From Sedimentibacter saalensis (GTDB lineage: Bacteria; Bacillota; Clostridia; Tissierellales; Sedimentibacteraceae): a DNA stretch of 64,000 nt. The stretch spans positions 186,001 through 250,000 of the forward strand of contig NZ_VLKH01000003.1 in assembly GCF_007830175.1 (NCBI RefSeq), written 5' to 3'. Below are positions 7,172 to 54,121 of this stretch, one piece after another. Each line of letters starts with the position of its first letter. Within the stretch, counting starts at the first letter, position 1. The position numbers and the translations under genes were made by a program. The notes under the pieces are model-generated. The model was given only the letters and a program-made list of their open reading frames with translations, did no database searches and was not told the DNA's origin.

Positions 7172-7214
7172 ACAAGATGTTTAACTTAATGACATTGGGC
7201 ATCTTGTCTTTTTA
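7172..7214 (+). terminator. Terminator for the plus-strand gene at 6670
   Basis: ACAAGATG (7172-7179) pairs with CATCTTGT (7200-7207) and is followed by a T-rich stretch on the plus strand. It overlaps the end of aroK on the other strand, so the convergent genes share a double-terminator region. Confidence 0.65.
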
Positions 7215-7703
7215 TTTTACAACTCTTTTGATAATATCCTGTACAACTTCTGAAATATCTCCTGAATTGGACACTTCTATATCACAGTATTCCTTGTACA
7301 AGTCTATTCTTTCATCATATAAATCATATACTTTTTTTATTCCGTCCTTGAGGAGGGGGCGGGTGCTCATATCTATGTCAGCTACTATGTCTTCAACACA
7401 TCTGTTTATGAACACAATGGTGGAGCTTTGTTTAAGGAAGTCAATATTTTCTTTCCTTTTTATTATTCCTCCGCCTGCAGATATGATGCAGCTATCCATT
7501 TTACTCAGCTCTTCGGCGCATCTTGTTTCTGCATCCCTGAAACATTCCTCGCTTATAGCAAAAAGTTCCTTGATTGTTTTATGTTCTTTTTTTTCAATAT
7601 GTTCATCCATATCTATAAACTTCATACAAAGCTTTTGGGAAACCATGAGTCCAATTGTGCTTTTGCCGCTTCCGGGCATTCCAATCAATACAATGTTTTT
7701 CAT
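7212..7703 (-). CDS. aroK: Shikimate kinase
   Basis: A 163-residue P-loop kinase that phosphorylates shikimate to shikimate 3-phosphate with ATP. The Walker A motif GMPGSGKST sits at residues 8-16. The DMDEHIE segment carries the Asp that binds shikimate and Mg2+, followed by RDAE and the SAGGGI glycine motif. The lid region shows STRPLL with the conserved Arg. The length is normal. Its ATG overlaps the aroC stop by four bases (ATGA), the usual sign of translational coupling. It is the last gene of the six-gene aro operon that starts with the leader peptide at 13335. Confidence 0.95.
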   Translation of the reverse strand: MKNIVLIGMPGSGKSTIGLMVSQKLCMKFIDMDEHIEKKEHKTIKELFAISEECFRDAETRCAEELSKMDSCIISAGGGIIKRKENIDFLKQSSTIVFINRCVEDIVADIDMSTRPLLKDGIKKVYDLYDERIDLYKEYCDIEVSNSGDISEVVQDIIKRVVK

Positions 7704-8815
7704 ATGTCACCTTTAGTTTTGTTGAAAAAAATTTCACCTTCCCGTTCCATGATTAAATCAAGAACAACAAGTGCGGCAGCTGCATCAATAACAGGAATCG
7801 CTCTTTGCACAATGCAGGGGTCGTGACGTCCGCTTACTTGCAGTGTTGTGTTTTCCATGGTTGAAACATCTATTGTTTCCTGCAGCTTTGAAATTGACGG
7901 TGTAGGCTTTATAGCCGTCCTGAAAACAACCGGCATTCCGTTTGTAATGCCCCCCAGGATTCCGCCATTGTTGTTGCTTTTTAAAAACACGTTTCCTTCC
8001 TGTGTATAGTATGGGTCGTTTGACTCTGATCCCCTCATGTTTGTTATGTTGAAACCCTGTCCGAACTCAATTCCCTTTACTGCAGGTATGGAAAAAATCA
8101 TGTGTGAAATTTTGCTCTCAACAGAATCAAAGAATGGTTCACCGTATCCTGCTGGAATGTTGAGTATGATTGTTTCTGCAACTCCCCCAACAGAATCACC
8201 CTCTTCTTTAGCTTTCAATATTTCATGCTGCATGAGTTTTTTTGCTTGCTGATCTATGACAGGAAAATCCATGCTTCTTATATTCACAACAGTCTCGGGA
8301 TTTTCTTCAAAACTACTGTTATCAGCAATTCCATATATTTTTTTAATTCTTGTACCTATTAATATTCCCTTGTAATTTTCAAGAACCTGCATGGCAAGTG
8401 CACCTGCGAACAAAAGAGGAGCTGTTATTCTTCCCGAAAAGTGTCCTCCTCCCCGATAATCATTGAAGCCTGAATATTTCACATGGCCCGTATAATCCGC
8501 ATGGCCAGGGCGCATGGCATACTTAAGATACGAATAGTCTTTTGACCTTGTATCCTCATTTAATATAATTGCGCAAAGGGGGCTTCCTGTAGTCTTTCCT
8601 TCAAACAAGCCGCTTACAACACTTGGCTTGTCGCTTTCCTTCCTTGCTGTTGAAAAACTGTCTTTCCCGGGGGCACGCCTCTCCATTTGACTTTCTATGA
8701 AGTTCATGTCTATTTCCAGACCGGAAGGCAGGCCGTCTATTACAACGCCTATGGCACCGCCGTGAGATTCACCGAATATGCTTACTTTTAATTTATTGCC
8801 TATCATTGAACTCAT
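7700..8815 (-). CDS. aroC: Chorismate synthase
   Basis: A 371-residue FMN-dependent enzyme converting 5-enolpyruvylshikimate 3-phosphate to chorismate. Typical features are GESHGGAIGVVIDGLPSG near the N-terminus, RRAPGKDSFSTARKESD, the RPGHADYTG segment, and the GGGHFSGR signature with its catalytic His and Arg. Late in the chain come NNGGILGGITNGMP and a SGRHDPCIVQRAIPV stretch with the conserved Arg-His-Asp. Full family length. The start overlaps the end of aroA by 23 bases and is preceded by GGGGTGAAATAA. The enzyme needs reduced flavin, which suits an anaerobe. Confidence 0.96.
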   Translation of the reverse strand: MSSMIGNKLKVSIFGESHGGAIGVVIDGLPSGLEIDMNFIESQMERRAPGKDSFSTARKESDKPSVVSGLFEGKTTGSPLCAIILNEDTRSKDYSYLKYAMRPGHADYTGHVKYSGFNDYRGGGHFSGRITAPLLFAGALAMQVLENYKGILIGTRIKKIYGIADNSSFEENPETVVNIRSMDFPVIDQQAKKLMQHEILKAKEEGDSVGGVAETIILNIPAGYGEPFFDSVESKISHMIFSIPAVKGIEFGQGFNITNMRGSESNDPYYTQEGNVFLKSNNNGGILGGITNGMPVVFRTAIKPTPSISKLQETIDVSTMENTTLQVSGRHDPCIVQRAIPVIDAAAALVVLDLIMEREGEIFFNKTKGDI

Positions 8816-10046
8816 TTATTTCACCCCCCAGCATTTTATAGTCTTCCCAGAAGTTAGGATATGACTTGTTGACTGCCATGCAGTCCGTAAGTATTATGTC
8901 TTCACGGCACCTTGTTGCCGCCACAGCAAGAGACATTGCTATGCGGTGATCATTCCAGCTGTCAACAACTGCCCCTCCGTCTAAGACGTCTTTTCCCTTG
9001 ATTATAAGTCCGTCTTTTCGCTCCTCTATAATAGCCCCAAGCTTTCCAAGCTCTGTTGAAATGGCCTTCAAGCGGTCAGACTCCTTTATTCTTAATCTTT
9101 CTGCATTGGTTATATATGTGGTTACTCCATCCTTAAGAGATGCCAGCACTGTAAGAATTGGTACTAAATCGGGTATTTGAGAAGCATCTATTGTAACCTG
9201 TTCCATGCCGCTGTCATATTTCCTTACAATATCTACAATTTCCTTATCTCCCTGCAGTGAGTCAACGTTAAGTCCAAGACAATCCACATCGTTTCCTATT
9301 TCTCTTGCGACTATGAAAAACGCAGCCTGAGAATAATCTCCTTCAACTTTGTAATTAGCATTCTTATACTTACATTCCTTGTTTATTTTTAGCTCCCTGT
9401 AGTCTTGGTTCTCTACAGATATGCCGAACTTTTCAAGCATGTTTATGGTAAGGTCCACATAACCTCTAGACTCTAAGTTATCCTTTATCTTTATTGTTGA
9501 ATCTTTTCTAAGAAGGGGAAGTGCAAACAACAATCCTGAAATAAACTGAGAGCTTACCCCTCCTGTCATTTCATAAGTTCCTCCCTTCAGATTTCCTTTT
9601 GCCCATAAAGGCAGCTGTCCATCATTAGTTTCATAATCTATGCTGTCTCTTTTAAATATTTCGAAAAACACATCAAGAGGCCTCTTTGACAGATTTCCGG
9701 AACCGGTGAATGTACATCTATCTGCAAGCATCAGTCCCACAGGTATTAGAAACCTGAGGGTTGATCCCGACTCCCTGCAGTTTATGAATGCTTCTGAAAC
9801 ATTTCCTTTACTTCCATTTATGCAAAGAGTACTGTAAGGACCATCCCCTGAAACTTCAATTTCTGCTCCAAGCTGTTTCATGCTGTCCATGGTTGCCTTT
9901 ATATCTTCTGACAAAATAACATTTTCCACTATGCTTTCTCCAGAGCTTAAGCCTGCGCAAATTAATGCTCTGTGGCTCATGCTCTTTGACGGAGGAGCAT
10001 ATATTTTTCCATTTAATTTTGCTGGCTTAATTTTAATTGCAGACAT
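8793..10046 (-). CDS. aroA: 3-phosphoshikimate 1-carboxyvinyltransferase (EPSP synthase)
   Basis: A 417-residue enzyme adding enolpyruvate from PEP to shikimate 3-phosphate. Motifs include PPSKSMSHRALICAGLSSGES near the N-terminus with its phosphate-binding Lys, SGSTLRFLIPVG, and TGGVSSQFISGLLFALPLL. The RIKESDRL signature and a DHRIAMSLAVAA stretch are near the C-terminus. The QLPLWAKGNLKGG region fits the substrate loop. The length is normal. The gene starts 11 bases after aroB and overlaps aroC, so it is central in the operon. Confidence 0.96.
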   Translation of the reverse strand: MSAIKIKPAKLNGKIYAPPSKSMSHRALICAGLSSGESIVENVILSEDIKATMDSMKQLGAEIEVSGDGPYSTLCINGSKGNVSEAFINCRESGSTLRFLIPVGLMLADRCTFTGSGNLSKRPLDVFFEIFKRDSIDYETNDGQLPLWAKGNLKGGTYEMTGGVSSQFISGLLFALPLLRKDSTIKIKDNLESRGYVDLTINMLEKFGISVENQDYRELKINKECKYKNANYKVEGDYSQAAFFIVAREIGNDVDCLGLNVDSLQGDKEIVDIVRKYDSGMEQVTIDASQIPDLVPILTVLASLKDGVTTYITNAERLRIKESDRLKAISTELGKLGAIIEERKDGLIIKGKDVLDGGAVVDSWNDHRIAMSLAVAATRCREDIILTDCMAVNKSYPNFWEDYKMLGGEINEFNDRQ

Positions 10047-10057
10047 ATATTTCTCCG

Positions 10058-11119
10058 TTAAATAAATTTGCTTGTTTCTTGTTCAGGTATTGTGTAAATA
10101 AATGCATTTCCAATGTCTTTTAAAAGTATGAGGTTCAATTTGCCTGATATGTTCTTTTTATCAACCAAAATGTTCTTAATTATTTCTTCTCTATCCAAAT
10201 GAGGGATTATGTATTCTATACCGTAATTTTCAAGTGCACCCTTAATTTTATCCGATGTTCCTTTTTCGGTAATACCCATTTCCTCACTTTTTTTAGTTAT
10301 CCAGTACATTCCAACAGAAACAGCTTCACCATGAGAATATTTTTCATAGTTGAAATATTTTTCAATGGCATGGCCTATGGTGTGACCAAAATTCAAAAGC
10401 ATTCTGATGCCCTTATCTTTTTCATCCATTTCAACCGTTTCTTTTTTTATGCTTAAACATCTGAAAATGATGTCTTCAATATTGTCTAAAAGTTCAAAAT
10501 TGCTTTTGATGTCAAGAAGCATACTGAACAATTCTTTGTCTCTTATGCATCCATACTTTATGGCTTCTCCAAGACCATCCTTCACAAACTTCTCAGGAAG
10601 GCTGTTCAGCACTTCCGGATCCACCAGCACAAGTTTTGGATGATAAAAGCTTCCAATTAGGTTTTTTCCTTCATCAAGGTTTACTGCAACCTTGCCTCCT
10701 ATGCTTGAATCTATTTGTGCAAGAAGTGATGTGGGAATTTGTACAAAATCTATACCTCTCAAATATGTTGAAGCTGCAAAACCGGCCAAATCTCCAACAA
10801 CTCCGCCTCCAAGGGCAACTATTAAATCTCCTCTTGTAATTCCCATGCTCACAAGATTTGAATACACATGTTTCAAAGTATCAACTGTCTTACTTTGTTC
10901 CCCTGGCTTTATAACTATGAATGTTGGGGTAAAATTTTCTGCAGCCAGGGACTTTTCAAGTATTTCACCATATAAGCCAAACACATTTTCATCTGTTACA
11001 ACAGCAATTTTATTGCTGCTGTAAACTTTTCTGATATCATGTCCTGCATTTTTTATAATTCCTTTTTCTATAATAATATTGCTTGTAATACTTCCTAAAT
11101 TCATATTAAGCTTTTTCAT
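10058..11119 (-). CDS. aroB: 3-dehydroquinate synthase
   Basis: A 353-residue NAD- and metal-dependent enzyme cyclising DAHP to 3-dehydroquinate. The sequence shows the KPGEQSKT segment, GGGVVGDLAGFAASTYLRG for NAD binding, and PTSLLAQIDSSIGGKVAVN with active-site residues. GLGEAIKYG supplies a metal-binding Glu. Two histidine motifs, FGHTIGHAIEK and YSHGEAVSVGM, hold the metal. Full length. It overlaps the end of tyrA by 14 bases, indicating translational coupling. In this operon the order is aroF-tyrA-aroB-aroA-aroC-aroK; aroD and aroE are not in the window. Confidence 0.96.
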   Translation of the reverse strand: MKKLNMNLGSITSNIIIEKGIIKNAGHDIRKVYSSNKIAVVTDENVFGLYGEILEKSLAAENFTPTFIVIKPGEQSKTVDTLKHVYSNLVSMGITRGDLIVALGGGVVGDLAGFAASTYLRGIDFVQIPTSLLAQIDSSIGGKVAVNLDEGKNLIGSFYHPKLVLVDPEVLNSLPEKFVKDGLGEAIKYGCIRDKELFSMLLDIKSNFELLDNIEDIIFRCLSIKKETVEMDEKDKGIRMLLNFGHTIGHAIEKYFNYEKYSHGEAVSVGMYWITKKSEEMGITEKGTSDKIKGALENYGIEYIIPHLDREEIIKNILVDKKNISGKLNLILLKDIGNAFIYTIPEQETSKFI

Positions 11120-11972
11120 AGTTCATCTCTTTTCTCAGCATGCTGCTGTTTTTAAAAACTACCTTCAAGGAATCAATGTCATCGTTGTCAATCATTTTGG
11201 AAATATTTTTTATATCCTCAATTACAGCTTCAAGTTCTGCAACTATATTTTGTTTGTTTTCATGAAGGAGTTCACTCCACAACTCACAGTTTATGTCTGC
11301 AACTCTTGTAATATCCCTGAAGCTCCCGCCATGTAAATCTTTGCTACGTTCAAAACTCTTGCTGTTCATCATGATGCATGCCAGTATGTGTGGAAGCTGG
11401 CTTGTGTATGCAACTATCCTGTCATGTTCTCTTGGTGACATTTCAATTATTCTCTTAAATCCTATTGTAAATAGAATTTCTTTTAAAAGCAATACCAATT
11501 CTTTATTGCTTTTTTCATCAGGCGTTATGATGTAATTTGTGCCTTGAAATATGCTGCCGTCTGAATATTTGTAGCCCATGCTTTCCTTGCCGGACATGGG
11601 ATGACCACCTATGAATTCACAGTCACTCCTTAGAACGTCTCTTGCTCCCTGTACAATCTTTTCTTTTATCCCCGAGGTATCTGTTATCAAAGCTCCGTGT
11701 TTGAAATTATCCCTGTTTTTTTTCATGAACTCAAGTACTGCATTAGGGTACGTACACAAAATTACTATGTCAGAATTTTTAATAGGAATTGTATCATCCT
11801 CAAATAAATCATCAATTATTCCCGACTCATGGGCCTCCTTCAGTACATCCCTGTCAAGATCCAAGGCCCATATGCTTTTAACACTTAAATTTTCTCTTAT
11901 AGATTTGGCCATGGAACCTCCTATTAGTCCCAGCCCTACAATTGTAATATTGAAGTCACATGCTATATCCAT
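11106..11972 (-). CDS. tyrA: Prephenate dehydrogenase
   Basis: A 288-residue enzyme oxidising prephenate to 4-hydroxyphenylpyruvate, the tyrosine branch. An N-terminal Rossmann motif VGLGLIGGSMAKS binds NAD. The GGHPMSGKESMGY segment holds the catalytic His, and HDRIVAYTSQLPHI and HGGSFRDITRVA are typical of the helical domain. No C-terminal ACT domain is present, so tyrosine feedback may rest on transcription rather than on this enzyme. That fits the Tyr-rich leader peptide in front of the operon. The gene begins 9 bases after aroF. Confidence 0.93.
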   Translation of the reverse strand: MDIACDFNITIVGLGLIGGSMAKSIRENLSVKSIWALDLDRDVLKEAHESGIIDDLFEDDTIPIKNSDIVILCTYPNAVLEFMKKNRDNFKHGALITDTSGIKEKIVQGARDVLRSDCEFIGGHPMSGKESMGYKYSDGSIFQGTNYIITPDEKSNKELVLLLKEILFTIGFKRIIEMSPREHDRIVAYTSQLPHILACIMMNSKSFERSKDLHGGSFRDITRVADINCELWSELLHENKQNIVAELEAVIEDIKNISKMIDNDDIDSLKVVFKNSSMLRKEMNYEKA

Positions 11973-11981
11973 AGTGCACCT

Positions 11982-12995
11982 CTAGATTTCTCTGTCTTCT
12001 ACCTGGGCAAGAATCTTAAGTTTTCCCATTAGGCGGTCAAATTTTTCAGGCTTTATTGACTGAGCACCATCACACAAAGCATTTTCCGGGTCGTTGTGCA
12101 CCTCAATAATCAGCCCGTCTGCCCCTGCAACAACTGCTGCCTTCGCCATTGGTTCAACCATCCACCACAATCCTGCCGCATGGCTGGGGTCTATTATTAC
12201 AGGCAGATGGCTGAGCTTTTTAATGGCAGGTATGGCACTTAAATCCAAAGTGTTTCTTGTGTATTTTTCAAATGTCCTTATTCCTCTTTCGCACAATATT
12301 ACATTTTCATTTCCACCGGCCATAATGTATTCAGCTGACATGAGAAGTTCTTCGATTGTGGCAGACAGTCCTCTTTTTAAGAGAATCGGCTTGTTTGTTT
12401 TGCCAAGCTGCCTCAAAAGGTCGAAATTCTGCATGTTTCTTGCTCCAACCTGAATAACATCCACTTGTTCAACAAATTCATCCAGAAATTCCGTAGACAT
12501 TATTTCTGTTACAATTGGGAGCCCTGTTTTTTCCCTTGCAAATTTTAAAAGCTCAAGCCCTTCTCTTTTCAGTCCCTGGAATGCATAAGGGGATGTTCTT
12601 GGCTTGAATGCTCCTCCTCTTAAAAATCCTGCCCCAGAATTTTTTACAGATTTAGCAATGGATAAAATTTGCTCTTCACTTTCAACCGAGCAAGGTCCTG
12701 CAATTATCGCCAGCTTTTTGCCCCCAATTGATCTGTCATTTACGTCAACCACAGTGTTGTCCGGGTGAAAAAGCCTGTTTGCTTTTTTGTAAGGTTCCTG
12801 CACAAGAATAACCTTGTCGACTATGCTTATTGTCTGGAATGTTCCGGATTCTATGTCGCTTGTATCCCCTACAACCCCAAGAATGTGATGATTGAGGCCC
12901 ATTGATTCGTACACTTCACACCCGAATTGATGAATTTTCTTCTTTACATCTTCAATTTCTTTTTCGCTTGCTTGATTGTTGATTACTAATATCAT
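11982..12995 (-). CDS. aroF: DAHP synthase (type I beta), leader-peptide-controlled copy
   Basis: A 337-residue 3-deoxy-7-phosphoheptulonate synthase joining PEP and erythrose 4-phosphate. Residues 1-70 form the ferredoxin-like regulatory domain (MILVINNQASEKEIED...). The barrel follows, with GPCSVES, RGGAFKPRTSPYAFQG, QVGARNMQNFDLL, LLKRGLSATIEELL, CERGIRTFE, DPSHAAGLWW and EVHNDPENALCDGAQS. The ATG at 12995 is chosen because GGAGGGCAAC precedes it. A longer frame upstream only reads through the hairpin leader and is not protein-like. The second copy at 14497 has the same length and is clearly paralogous. It is the first structural gene of the six-gene aro operon. Confidence 0.95.
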   Translation of the reverse strand: MILVINNQASEKEIEDVKKKIHQFGCEVYESMGLNHHILGVVGDTSDIESGTFQTISIVDKVILVQEPYKKANRLFHPDNTVVDVNDRSIGGKKLAIIAGPCSVESEEQILSIAKSVKNSGAGFLRGGAFKPRTSPYAFQGLKREGLELLKFAREKTGLPIVTEIMSTEFLDEFVEQVDVIQVGARNMQNFDLLRQLGKTNKPILLKRGLSATIEELLMSAEYIMAGGNENVILCERGIRTFEKYTRNTLDLSAIPAIKKLSHLPVIIDPSHAAGLWWMVEPMAKAAVVAGADGLIIEVHNDPENALCDGAQSIKPEKFDRLMGKLKILAQVEDREI

Positions 12996-13019: not shown

Positions 13020-13135
13020 ATAAAGTTGCTCCGCAACTCCGCTAGGGGGACCTATGTCCCCCTTGACGGCAAGAGCGTCCCGCTCTTTGCAATCCCTGTT
13101 TTTATATACTAGGAAAGAGAACTTTCCAAGTATAT
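13020..13135 (-). repeat. Array of four hairpins between attenuator and aroF
   Basis: On the minus strand four strong stem-loops follow one another. They are a long AT-rich one (TATATACT with AGTATATA, 13096-13135), AAGAGCG/CGCTCTT, GGGGGAC/GTCCCCC (about 13050-13067) and AGTTGC/GCAACT (about 13024-13038). The GC content is much higher than that of the surroundings. It looks like an inserted repetitive palindromic element, or a structured 5' leader that protects or regulates the aroF message. None has a U-tract, so they are not terminators. Membership of a dispersed repeat family is my inference. Confidence 0.5.
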
Positions 13136-13211
13136 AAAAAAAGAGTCCCCAAGGACTCTTCCTGATTTCCAAATATTATAATTATAGATTAAGCATAATC
13201 ATAAGATAAGA
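13136..13211 (-). promoter_or_regulatory. Transcription attenuator of the aroF-aroK operon
   Basis: The terminator is AAGAGTCC-TTGG-GGACTCTT (13160-13141) followed on the minus strand by T residues (to 13136). It starts 29 bases after the leader-peptide stop. A possible antiterminator pairs 13211-13197 (inside the end of the leader gene) with 13167-13157. That helix has about 11 pairs with two bulges and takes the first four bases of the terminator stem. A ribosome stalled at the upstream Tyr codons would leave this arm free; one that reaches the stop would cover it. The terminator is clear, the antiterminator is a proposal. Confidence 0.7.
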
Positions 13212-13335
13212 ATTTAAGTTTTGATCCTTTATAAATAAATCTATGCAGTTTTTTTGTACAAAAATAATAGTAATAATAATTACTAAAATAATAGTTATAC
13301 AATTTAGCCGCCATAAACTTATTTACAACTTTCAT
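13189..13335 (-). CDS. Tyr/Phe-rich leader peptide of the aroF operon
   Basis: A 48-residue open frame with ATG at 13335 and a strong AGGAGG ribosome site (13341-13346). It holds 11 Tyr and 5 Phe; residues 13-25 read YNYYFSNYYYYYF, eight Tyr and two Phe in 13. Such codon runs are the mark of leader peptides in ribosome-mediated attenuation. The regulated amino acid matches, because tyrA and DAHP synthase lie downstream. A promoter lies 34-61 bases before the ATG and an intrinsic terminator lies 29 bases after the stop. The peptide itself has no expected function. It is longer than the best-known enteric leader peptides. I know of no described equivalent in clostridia. Confidence 0.85.
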   Translation of the reverse strand: MKVVNKFMAAKLYNYYFSNYYYYYFCTKKLHRFIYKGSKLKFLSYDYA

Positions 13336-13368
13336 TCTGATCCTCCTGATTTCATTTAAATTATATGT

Positions 13369-13396
13369 ATTGTATCACATAAAATCCGGATGTCAA
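13369..13396 (-). promoter_or_regulatory. Promoter of the leader-aroF-tyrA-aroBACK operon
   Basis: TTGACA (13396-13391), a 16-base spacer and TACAAT (13374-13369) closely match the housekeeping consensus. They place transcription start about 20 bases before the leader-peptide ribosome site. Confidence 0.75.
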
Positions 13397-13442: not shown

Positions 13443-14489
13443 TTAAGCCTTGAAGCTTCCAAGTATTTTCATGTATGGAAGTTCCGTCTTAAGCTGGCTG
13501 AGCATTGATTTTATTTTGTTGTCACATAAATTGCCCTCAAAATCCACATAGAACATGTATTCCCATGTTCTTATGCGATTGGGCCTTGAGTTGATGTATG
13601 ACAAATTGCAGCCATAATAAGCAAAAGTTGATAGCACTTCACTTAAGGAGCCTGTTTCATGAAGAACATTGAAAACAATGCTCACTTTATTGTGATTATC
13701 TTCAACCAGCAGTTTTTTTGAAACTGCTGCAAAACGGGTGTAATTCTTTTTTTGATCATTGATTTGTTTTTCAATTATTTTTAACCCGTAGAGCTTTGCA
13801 GCTTCTTCAGAACATATGCAGGCAGTGCTTTTTTTGTTAAGTTCAGCTGTTTTCTGAGCCGCAATGGCTGTATTAATTTCATCCTTTCCTATAAACTTGT
13901 GTTTTGCGATATATTCGCTGCACTGAGCCAATGCCTGAGGATGGGAATAAACTTCCCTTATGTCTTCAGGATTGGTATCAATACAGCAAGCCAGGCAGTG
14001 ATCAACTTTCTTCTCATATGTGTGGTTAATAAACAAGTCATACTTTAAAAGGAGGTCATAAACATCATTTATGTAACCTGCCGTTGAATTCTCTATGGGT
14101 ACAATTCCAATGTCTGCTGTTCCTTCAAACACTGATTTAAACACATCTTCAAATGTGAGTCTGTTAATTAATTTAGCCTCACTGAACAGCGACTTTGCAG
14201 CACTTTCGGAATATGAGCACTCAAGTCCCTGGTAACATACGACTTCAACCTCTTTTTTTTCCCTGCATCCGAAATCGAGTTTTTCAAGAACAGGATTCAA
14301 TTTGTATTTGTATCTCATGTCCATGGATTTCTGCATATTGAGAAAATATTTATATTCCATGCCATAATCTCCGGTTCTTTCTTTGTCTGCCAGTATTATT
14401 TCTTCCAGAACAGCCATGCGTTTTTCGAACAAATCCTTCATTGCTGCATCATAATCATTTAATTTTCCCATCAAATAATCATAGTCCAT
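13443..14489 (-). CDS. pheA: Chorismate mutase/prephenate dehydratase (P-protein)
   Basis: A 348-residue bifunctional enzyme making phenylpyruvate. The N-terminal ~80 residues form a divergent AroQ-type helical mutase domain (DYDAAMKDLFEKRMAVLEEI). The dehydratase domain (about 85-260) has YSESAA, VPIENSTAGYINDVYDLL, SHPQALAQCSEYI and the NYTRFA motif with the catalytic Thr. The C-terminal ACT domain reads GSLSEVLSTFAYYGCNLSYI then NSRP, where many family members have GALS and ESRP, so Phe binding may be altered. I use the ATG at 14489, seven bases after the aroF stop with AGGTG before it. An upstream in-frame ATG would overlap aroF and lacks a ribosome site. Confidence 0.92.
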   Translation of the reverse strand: MDYDYLMGKLNDYDAAMKDLFEKRMAVLEEIILADKERTGDYGMEYKYFLNMQKSMDMRYKYKLNPVLEKLDFGCREKKEVEVVCYQGLECSYSESAAKSLFSEAKLINRLTFEDVFKSVFEGTADIGIVPIENSTAGYINDVYDLLLKYDLFINHTYEKKVDHCLACCIDTNPEDIREVYSHPQALAQCSEYIAKHKFIGKDEINTAIAAQKTAELNKKSTACICSEEAAKLYGLKIIEKQINDQKKNYTRFAAVSKKLLVEDNHNKVSIVFNVLHETGSLSEVLSTFAYYGCNLSYINSRPNRIRTWEYMFYVDFEGNLCDNKIKSMLSQLKTELPYMKILGSFKA

Positions 14490-14496
14490 AAAACAC

Positions 14497-15510
14497 CTAC
14501 ATTGTCCTTCCAACTGTATTTGCAATCATTTTTAACTTTCTCATTGTTTCCTTGAACTCACCGTAAGTCAACGACTGCGCACCGTCACAAAGAGCGTTGG
14601 CAGGATCATTGTGAACTTCAATAATAAGTCCGTCAGCACCTGCAGCAACTGCTGCCATAGACAGTGGCTCAACCATCCAGTTCATGCCTGCAGCATGGCT
14701 TGGATCCACAATTACCGGCAGATGGCTGAGTTTCTTAAGAGCAGGTATGGCACTTATGTCAAGAGTGTTCCTTGTGTATGTTTCAAAGGACCTTATTCCT
14801 CTTTCACACAAAATAACATCTTCGTTTCCTTCGCTCATAATGTATTCAGCAGACATGAGAAGCTCTTCCAGTGTATTTGAAAACCCTCTTTTCAAAAGAA
14901 CAGGTTTGTTTGTTTTTCCAACTTCTTTAAGCAGCTCGAAGTTCTGCATGTTGCGGGCACCGATTTGAAAAATGTCAACAGAGTCCAGGAACATCTCTAT
15001 GTGAGCTGCATTTGTTATTTCAGAAACTATTGGCATCCCTGTTTCATCCTTCGCAAGATTTAACAGCTCCAGCCCATCAGCCTTAAGACCCTGGAAAGAA
15101 TAAGGTGAAGTTCTTGGCTTCCACGCTCCTCCCCTTAAAATTGAAGCTCCTTCATCATTGACATTTCTGGCAATGTCTATTATCTGCTCCCTGCTTTCCA
15201 CAGAACAAGGTCCTGCCATAACGACAACATTGGGACCTCCTATTTCCATGTTGCCAACTTTAATTACTGTATTCTCCGGATGGAGTTTTTTGTTTGCTTT
15301 TTTATATGGCTCCTGCACCTTAATGATTTTTTCAACATTTTTGTTCAGGTATATGGAGTTTATGTCAAGGACAGTAGTGTCCCCCACAAGTCCCAGCACC
15401 GTAGTGCTCTGGCCAACTATTGAATTGACCTGTATGCCGTATTTGTCAAGCATCTCTCTTATTTTTAATATTTCTTCTTCCTTTGTTCCGTTTTTAAGTA
15501 CAAGTATCAT
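14497..15510 (-). CDS. aroF: DAHP synthase (type I beta), T-box-controlled copy
   Basis: A 337-residue paralogue of the gene at 11982-12995, with the same layout of N-terminal ferredoxin-like domain and barrel. Motifs are GPCSVESREQ, RGGAWKPRTSPYSFQG, QIGARNMQNFELL, LLKRGFSNTLEELL, CERGIRSFETYTRNTLD and DPSHAAGMNW. It feeds the phenylalanine branch with pheA directly behind it. Expression is predicted to depend on the T-box leader at 15543-15815. The ATG at 15510 is preceded by GGAGGCAATT. The two copies are moderately diverged, so the duplication is not recent. Confidence 0.95.
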   Translation of the reverse strand: MILVLKNGTKEEEILKIREMLDKYGIQVNSIVGQSTTVLGLVGDTTVLDINSIYLNKNVEKIIKVQEPYKKANKKLHPENTVIKVGNMEIGGPNVVVMAGPCSVESREQIIDIARNVNDEGASILRGGAWKPRTSPYSFQGLKADGLELLNLAKDETGMPIVSEITNAAHIEMFLDSVDIFQIGARNMQNFELLKEVGKTNKPVLLKRGFSNTLEELLMSAEYIMSEGNEDVILCERGIRSFETYTRNTLDISAIPALKKLSHLPVIVDPSHAAGMNWMVEPLSMAAVAAGADGLIIEVHNDPANALCDGAQSLTYGEFKETMRKLKMIANTVGRTM

Positions 15511-15542: not shown

Positions 15543-15815
15543 AAAAAAACCTTCCGAATCCTATAATTAAATAGGGACGAAAGGTTATAATTCCGCGGTA
15601 CCACCCAAATTCAGCATGTGCTGCACTTTTTCGAATACAATAATATTCTATCCCTGTAACGTGGGAATACGTCCTGGACTACTTAATTCATCCAGTCAGC
15701 TCAAGAGGGAACTTCAAAATGATTTCTCTAATACCCGCTTTCAGTCTACGACGGGTACTCCCTGTTAGATTCGTCAGATTTACTTTCATCTGTCACAGCC
15801 GTTATATATTTTTTA
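15543..15815 (-). promoter_or_regulatory. T-box riboswitch upstream of aroF-pheA, probably tRNA-Phe
   Basis: The T-box core TGGGTGGTACCGCGG is at 15606-15592. It is followed by a terminator whose arms begin AACCTTTCG (from 15586) and end CGGAAGGTT, with seven T residues. Upstream lie stem I and the conserved TTGAGC element (about 15704-15699). A UUC triplet at 15711-15709 stands five bases before TGAGC, where I expect the specifier codon. UUC means phenylalanine and agrees with pheA in the operon. Uncharged tRNA-Phe would favour the antiterminator. The T-box call is certain; the specifier rests on alignment by eye. Confidence 0.93.
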
Positions 15816-53923: not shown

Positions 53924-54003
53924 TACCCTACGGTTGATATTTACATATTATATATAAAAGCTATTGAAAAATATTATTTAGTCTGTTATATTAATAAAAT
54001 ATG

Positions 54004-54078
54004 TACTCTCATATATTTTCGAAAATATGGTTCGAAAGTTTCTACGGGATGACCTTAAATTATCCTACTATGAGAAGA
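54004..54078 (+). promoter_or_regulatory. Purine riboswitch aptamer (guanine type)
   Basis: All parts of the purine aptamer are present: P1 CTCATA/TATGAG, P2 TTTCGA/TTCGAAA with the AAATATGG loop, the J2/3 core GTTTCTAC, P3 GGATGA/TTATCC and J3/1 CTACTAT. The specificity base before UAU is C (54068), which pairs with guanine or hypoxanthine. It controls the permease-phosphoribosyltransferase pair via the terminator at 54122. The ligand would turn expression off. Confidence 0.92.
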
Positions 54079-54121
54079 ATAACAGATAATAGGGTCTTTA
54101 AGGCCTTGATTTATTGTGCCT

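Follow-up and report, generated by a model that had tools for sequence, protein, structure and literature searches.

The trp, phe, his and ilv operons of enteric bacteria are controlled by ribosome-mediated attenuators, and T-boxes sense uncharged tRNA by binding the tRNA directly. Textbook accounts tend to assign leader-peptide attenuation to Proteobacteria and T-boxes to Firmicutes (cf. the accessible part of PMC2965389). Leader-peptide attenuation in Firmicutes has nevertheless been described, for other amino acids and other genes than those treated here, with His leader peptides at hisS*/hisZ of bacilli in the same accessible text (PMC2965389) and a Leu-rich attenuator at ilv of Staphylococcus aureus in the accessible part of PMC5794164. 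Attenuation at hisZ in Clostridium difficile and at lysQ in Lactococcus is cited from a 2010 survey in the accessible part of PMC4833913, and one further literature match (PMC1262725) concerned, in the part available, Actinobacteria.

The closest report is uORFC-13-1, located upstream of aroF in Acholeplasma and environmental DNA (24 representatives), for which the accessible text proposes attenuation (PMC8632094). It is described there as an upstream ORF (uORF) with a U run coding for at least one Phe and a terminator right after it, and a further base-paired substructure is mentioned (PMC8632094). As far as this description goes, an aromatic-coding uORF, a terminator behind it and aroF downstream are common to uORFC-13-1 and to the Tyr leader reported here, which lies on the minus strand of a 64,000-nucleotide stretch of Sedimentibacter saalensis (the window). 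Compared by description alone, uORFC-13-1 differs in coming only from Acholeplasma and unknown organisms, and the accessible text gives no peptide family, regulon or Tyr tuning for it. No other closely related report was found in the open-licence literature; an earlier description of the present leader family is possible, as subscription papers lay mostly outside the search. At gathering score Rfam matched neither the window leader nor any part of 20 loci, 15 of which carry a leader, and five leader peptides were without a match in Pfam and NCBIfam. What looks new is the leader family, within a kind of regulation whose mechanism is known.

A promoter, a ribosome site, a Tyr-rich frame and a U-tailed terminator follow one another upstream of aroF-tyrA-aroB-aroA-aroC-aroK, and the promoter, the AGGAGG, the 48-codon frame with 11 Tyr and 5 Phe and the U-tailed terminator given in the first-pass annotation were all found at the locus. 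All features of the leader are on the minus strand. The promoter scan placed a -35 hexamer TTGACA at 13391..13396 and a -10 hexamer TACAAT, with TG before it, at 13369..13374. This pair (13396-13369) has 11 of 12 consensus matches and a 16-nt spacer, was described as a good sigma-70 promoter, and was the best of 11 such sites in the 3 kb scanned, where 8.9 were expected. A -35-like site was also present in G003, G015, G021 and G024 and was absent from the corresponding place in G009. The ribosome site AGGAGG (13342..13347) serves the leader peptide ORF (13189..13335; 48 codons, MKVVNKFMAAKLYNYYFSNYYYYYFCTKKLHRFIYKGSKLKFLSYDYA), which was assigned by ORF reading and from relatives and contains 11 Tyr and 5 Phe codons. 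The control codons, 13-25 (YNYYFSNYYYYYF, 13261..13299), are aromatic at 10 of 13 positions; stop-to-stop reading of the window in six frames gave 2807 frames of 13 or more residues, of which the leader ORF is the only one with such a stretch. The intrinsic terminator, AAGAGUCC-UUGG-GGACUCUU with a U tract (13136..13160; stem -10.3 kcal/mol), has a stem-loop spanning 13160-13141 and a U run on to 13136, and was missed by one simple terminator scan. Folding of 13100-13370 gave z = -6.57, equalled by 0 of 200 shuffles, an energy owed in part to the terminator and to the inserted repeat described below.

In the fold the N-terminal codons (region 1, 13308..13328) form the 5' side of a putative protector hairpin, and pair with part of region 2 (13229..13248). 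The region 2 core AAGGAU, codons 35-37 (13225..13230), was placed by alignment and duplex energy as the putative 5' side of an antiterminator; the 3' side is GUCCUU of the terminator 5' arm and loop (13151..13156), giving 6 pairs of which one is G-U. The core shares its alignment register with UAAUGAG of other genera. The enteric trp, phe, his and ilv attenuators likewise have a leader peptide with control codons, alternative protector, antiterminator and terminator structures and a biosynthetic operon behind. Unlike in those attenuators, region 2 of the Tyr leader lies inside the ORF, past the control codons, and the control codons lie in the loop between coding arms.

The controlled operon, also on the minus strand, begins with aroF (DAHP synthase, 11982..12995; Pfam PF00793, PF18152), followed by tyrA (prephenate dehydrogenase, 11106..11972; PF02153, PF20463), aroB (3-dehydroquinate synthase, 10058..11119; PF01761, PF24621), aroA (EPSP synthase, 8793..10046; PF00275) and aroC (chorismate synthase, 7700..8815; PF01264). 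The last frame (7212..7703) was assigned by its position and by a GMPGSGKST motif, which we take to be that of a shikimate kinase, and is listed as putative aroK. Between terminator and aroF stands a copy of a repeat of about 115 nt (13021..13135, minus strand), absent from the corresponding site in the near relative G003. The repeat is hairpin-rich, with 87 matches that visual grouping assigns to 40 genomic places. In numerous other copies the match to the window copy is split into two blocks by extra letters, so that the window copy may carry an internal deletion.

A paralogous unit, outside the attenuator and on the same strand, carries a T-box leader (RF00230, Rfam covariance model, 15570..15805), a paralogous aroF (14497-15510) as the first gene behind it, and pheA (13443-14525) behind that aroF. 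The T-box model had no match at the Tyr leader (13136-13396) and matched at 15570-15805 instead. The T-box resembles the Tyr leader in preceding an aroF unit in the same genome and differs in that no coding frame is involved. The GUUCC at its specifier loop, read off the alignment, fits the Phe codon UUC. One genome holds duplicate aroF units, one under a T-box and one under a leader peptide, and in the related G022 (L028) a T-box was found upstream of aroF too. A third AroF paralogue of the genome (G000:C11:96120-97127; L002, L195) is 72% identical; no leader was found for it, and L002 had no Rfam match at gathering score. Elsewhere in the window a purine riboswitch aptamer (RF00167, 86.6 bits) was located at 53989-54090 on the plus strand.

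Relatives were collected by an AroF search of 61 genomes, 50 of which had a match, and by an AroF search of genome contigs from which the best 80 loci of 578 relatives were taken. A leader-peptide profile scored against 112 partly overlapping loci gave 62 matches of at least 12 bits, the threshold, some of them the same locus fetched twice. The leader family has the core FYFYFSWGYYFSAGYLFCKK and a consensus of approximately MKNLIRKGI..QFYFYFSWGYYFSAGYLFCKKI....SNE; it stands upstream of aroF in many Clostridia and Negativicutes, and its leaders sometimes precede aroB, aroD, aroE, aroK-like genes, tyrA or sodium symporters instead. Leaders of the Sedimentibacter type retain S-N-Y-Y-Y-Y (or a near form) and K-L-H-x-x-I-Y-K-G. 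The nearest relative, G003, has an AroF 99% identical to that of the window and keeps the ORF, the Tyr run, the ribosome site, the promoter and the terminator, with no repeat insert. The first-pass annotation had proposed looking upstream of aroF homologues in related genomes and had held that an unconserved Tyr run or frame would speak against attenuation; the leader was found there, as just described, and both run and frame are conserved. In the coding frame 44% of codons 10-34 are aromatic, compared with 13% and 16% when the other two frames are read, and in 98 of 98 leaders it was the richest frame, figures that describe rather than test, since the leaders were picked by that frame. Synonymous and non-synonymous counts within the Sedimentibacter type (without the G024 leader) were uninformative, at 28 synonymous and 132 non-synonymous codon differences. 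An inner hairpin, AGC-UGG-GGC / AGC-GCU-GGC, recurs within the aromatic run of leaders from Clostridium and related loci, outside Sedimentibacter, and is perhaps a pause signal.

Genomes were searched with the peptide profile at four taxonomic levels. At order level, where E values up to 0.01 were accepted, 17 of 199 genomes had a match, at least three of these (L136, L138 and L139) being weak and apparently false. For the other levels E values up to 0.001 were accepted, and the sampled genomes with a match numbered 52 of 391 for the class, 11 of 398 for the phylum and 94 of 146 for the family of G315. The family of G315 includes Clostridium, judged by leaders identical to named Clostridium loci. 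These tallies miss true members, because the profile missed some true leaders, including that of the window's own genome. In view of the class and family tallies, the earlier statement that Firmicutes aromatic operons usually rely on T-boxes or TRAP calls for revision, although the aroF-pheA paralogue does have a T-box.

The set drawn from the peptide profile held 59 loci, several from genomes already used to build the profile. The next gene was aroF in 47 of them, and L164, with an unrelated short frame between, brings this to 48. A sodium:solute symporter came next at four loci (L131 and L156 by Pfam PF00474, L141 and L171 by likeness), in genomes of two separate families; these symporters are candidate aromatic amino-acid transporters, judged by their place behind the leaders. 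The other next genes were a type I dehydroquinase (L137), one tyrA and one aroB, and the rest comprised one contig edge and three apparent false matches. Among 26 further loci (L199-L224), several of which repeat species already in the set, an aromatic-pathway gene came next in every case: 23 aroF, one aroB, one shikimate dehydrogenase (Pfam) and one putative shikimate kinase-like gene. Some genomes carry several copies, with four leaders each in G1058 and G1043, preceding aroF, shikimate kinase-like genes (SKI in the one scanned by Pfam), shikimate dehydrogenase and a DAHP synthase of another type (L231, Pfam PF00793). Two leaders of G1043 (L229/L230) stand back to back on opposite strands, with shikimate dehydrogenase and a shikimate kinase-like gene behind them. 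In Pelosinus a second copy lies upstream of aroK, and in G024 (L184/L194), whose genome had no AroF match, the Tyr leader is directly upstream of tyrA.

The terminator scan used 57 leaders; L003, L033 and L088 had been removed as repeat loci, as had those second copies in Pelosinus that have no aroF behind them. Under strict settings a terminator separates leader and aroF in 54 of the 57, the window included, and one of the three misses (L041) shows an imperfect stem in its fold. When eleven leaders were folded, the N-terminal codons usually paired with codons past the aromatic run, and these latter codons mostly hold UAAUGAG or a near form, which is complementary to the CUCAUUA of the 5' arm and loop of the terminator. 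An alignment (A2) of 32 leaders was built with MAFFT without structure, 32 of 54 being kept by the analyst's choice. Fourteen divergent, near-identical or split rows were removed at the outset (L023, L021, L030, L031, L094, L085, L096, L081, L082, L062, L047, L007, L111, L076) and then eight divergent ones (L099, L052, L059, L100, L051, L083, L108, L054). In A2 the helix of region 2 with the terminator arm, UAAUGAGU x ACUCAUUA, had 91.4% of its cells paired vs 27.3-58.0% in six slid versions; both-sided changes were counted in 13 cells, where shuffling gave 3.8 on average, and no shuffle out of 500 attained the covariation score. Counted by pair, both-sided change (4 of 8) did not exceed the shuffled level (162 of 500). 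Of the 13 compensatory cells, twelve belong to one clade, the four Sedimentibacter rows, which have UAAAGGAU, CAAAGGAU or UAAGGGAU opposite GUCCUU in an unchanged register.

The same pairing was examined in 98 leaders by comparing own with other arms. The downstream part of the ORF binds its own terminator arm better than the arms of other leaders (double-centred mean -2.40, permutation sd 0.23), and 0 of 10000 permutations reached the observed value. The control stretch upstream of the terminator gave 7089 of 10000, and the reversed-letter arm gave a small signal (21 of 10000), so that part of the effect may be composition. The letters of region 2 are read in two frames, as the SNE type in 39 leaders and the FLMS type in 14, and lie past the ORF in three, which points to a constraint at the RNA level that keeps letters and not peptide. 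The frame, the aromatic run, the terminator, the pairing of region 2 with the terminator arm and the association with aromatic genes are thus shown by comparison of relatives.

Single leaders gave a less uniform picture. The window antiterminator (13230-13225 x 13156-13151) has -6.8 kcal/mol, a value equalled by 94 of 500 shuffles, and is the weakest of the seven Sedimentibacter-type copies, for which the counts, window first, were 94, 88, 1, 2, 4, 1 and 43 of 500. Across the 54 leaders the best duplex was inside the ORF in 46, and clearly beat shuffles (at most 3 of 60) in just 14. The protector hairpin of regions 1 and 2 is a strong fold in the window. On the 32 leaders 78.0% of its cells were paired (2 of 500 shuffles as high) vs 41.8-60.2% when slid, with five pairs showing both-sided change (9 of 500) and seven such cells (105 of 500); its covariation score was at the shuffled level (194 of 500), and the Sedimentibacter rows pair one column off. 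A different antiterminator, 13211-13197 with 13167-13157, had been put forward in the first-pass annotation. It has -4.5 kcal/mol as proposed and -6.2 when extended. Of 500 shuffles for the window, 362 did as well as the extended form, and across seven leaders this count ran from 18 to 401. The pairing was rejected as the main switch; it may play a minor role, the best case being G024 (18 of 500). Judged on the window by itself, the two candidates differ little in energy (-6.2 vs -6.8) and neither is clearly above shuffles (362 and 94 of 500). The comparative evidence points to codons 35-37 (13230-13225) with the terminator arm and loop (13156-13151) as the better-supported antiterminator.

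Taken with its relatives, the locus is very probably a transcription attenuator of the ribosome-mediated kind, responding to charged tRNA-Tyr and perhaps, to a minor degree, to Phe. When the leader is not translated, region 1 (the N-terminal codons) would pair with region 2 (the codons past the Tyr run) and the terminator would fold. When Tyr-tRNA is scarce, a ribosome would stall on the Tyr run, between regions 1 and 2, and keep the two apart; region 2 would then pair with the emerging terminator 5' arm and loop, and polymerase would read into aroF-tyrA-aroBACK. When Tyr-tRNA is plentiful, the ribosome would run through region 2, which would be covered or return to region 1, and the terminator would form.

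These states were modelled by allowing folding only 3' of the ribosome, which assumes that a stalled ribosome separates regions 1 and 2. In this downstream-only model the terminator arm of the window was engaged upstream at 0.25 without a ribosome, 0.86 with a ribosome on the Tyr run and 0.10 with one near the ORF end. The stall value was at least 0.7 in 49 of 54 leaders, and a full switch (stall at least 0.7, end at most 0.4) was obtained in 20, or in 17 if a lower no-ribosome value was also required. When regions 1 and 2 were allowed to re-pair around the ribosome (13 leaders), the window gave no switch on the Tyr run, where its arm was engaged at 0.25, no more than without a ribosome, and some leaders had the arm engaged at almost every ribosome position. 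Since the switch was modelled only if the stalled ribosome separates regions 1 and 2, we infer the mechanism, with its order of events, ribosome stalling and tRNA-Tyr as signal, from anatomy and evolution.

The choice of amino acid was examined in 80 of the 98 leaders (97 distinct peptides), the 18 without an assigned next gene being omitted. Setting aroF apart, Y/(Y+F) had a median of 0.58 in 58 leaders with tyrA as the next gene and 0.33 in 22 others, with aroB, aroC or pheA next (Mann-Whitney p = 4.5e-9). After removal of leaders more than 80% alike the values were 0.56 (n=50) vs 0.35 (n=18; p = 1.6e-7). In phylogenetic contrasts on the AroF tree (68 of the 80 leaders) the direction was kept but was weaker (r = 0.31; 303 of 10000 sign flips). 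Leaders of the Sedimentibacter type are Tyr-rich and without Trp, with 11 Tyr and 5 Phe in the window, 11 and 3 in G009, 13 and 4 in G015, and 9 and 6 in G069. All seven (six Sedimentibacter, and G069 of another family) lead into tyrA, and no pheA was found behind tyrA in the stretches read, some of which end soon after aroB. Leaders before tyrA operons are richer in Tyr and the others in Phe, and the control codons appear to match the end product of the pathway. The earlier proposal of ribosome-mediated attenuation with Tyr as the main signal is thus favoured by the conserved Tyr run, frame and terminator and by a Tyr share that tracks tyrA.

Other readings of the leader were weighed against attenuation by tRNA-Tyr. 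The attenuator could be decaying in the lineage of the window, with the terminator a constant brake and read-through unregulated; the window antiterminator is indeed the weakest of seven copies, and a repeat copy has landed between terminator and aroF. Against this, the ORF, Tyr run, ribosome site, promoter and terminator of the window are intact, G003 keeps them all without the insert, and the downstream-only position model still switches for the window, so decay is judged improbable. Somewhat less probable again is an arrest peptide, in which the aromatic-rich nascent chain would stall the ribosome on binding free tyrosine or another small molecule, as nascent TnaC arrests with tryptophan. 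Such a peptide would fit the conservation of the non-aromatic S-W-G, S-A-G and C-K-K, which most leaders of other genera share, but AGC-UGG-GGC and AGC-GCU-GGC form the inner hairpin in most of the eleven leaders shown, and this folding of the codons would explain the conservation of S-W-G and S-A-G. Phe and Tyr swap freely in the run, a 30-row alignment has no invariant column and just M1 is nearly so, and the Sedimentibacter leaders are without S-A-G. Arrest induced by tyrosine would also have the wrong sign, raising a tyrosine-making operon in times of plenty.

The two remaining readings deserve very little credence. A small hydrophobic protein or peptide with no relation to the operon, upstream of it by chance, would suit the 48 aromatic-rich residues of the ORF and the five leaders without a Pfam or NCBIfam match; searches by peptide only, however, found aroF behind 48 of 59 loci, other pathway genes or symporters behind seven more and an aromatic-pathway gene behind 26 of 26 further loci, and a terminator follows 54 of 57 leaders, which leaves chance placement scarcely credible. 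Rho-dependent or translation-level control in place of an intrinsic-terminator switch is equally hard to credit, as a U-tailed stem stands after 54 of 57 leaders and its arm is a better fit to its own leader than to other leaders.

With attenuation by charged tRNA-Tyr as the preferred reading of the window, the evidence moderately favours a wider one, in which one leader-peptide family is the main regulator of aromatic amino acids in many Clostridia. Up to four copies per genome would stand before aroF, second-type DAHP synthase, aroB, aroD, aroE, aroK-like genes, tyrA and sodium symporters, and would be retuned by one-letter Phe/Tyr swaps (UUU/UAU) to fit the genes controlled. In Sedimentibacter a mixed Phe/Tyr/Trp sensor would have become a Tyr sensor for aroF-tyrA, the duplicate aroF-pheA having passed to a T-box, and the symporters would carry aromatic amino acids. 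The presence of an unlisted family of attenuators in 94 of the 146 genomes sampled from a family that contains Clostridium would alter the picture of clostridial aromatic control. The codon make-up of each leader may be read as a prediction of the amino acid to which its operon answers, and leaders before symporters suggest the substrates of these symporters. With a T-box and a leader peptide on duplicate aroF genes in one genome, the swap of two sensing systems would be directly testable.
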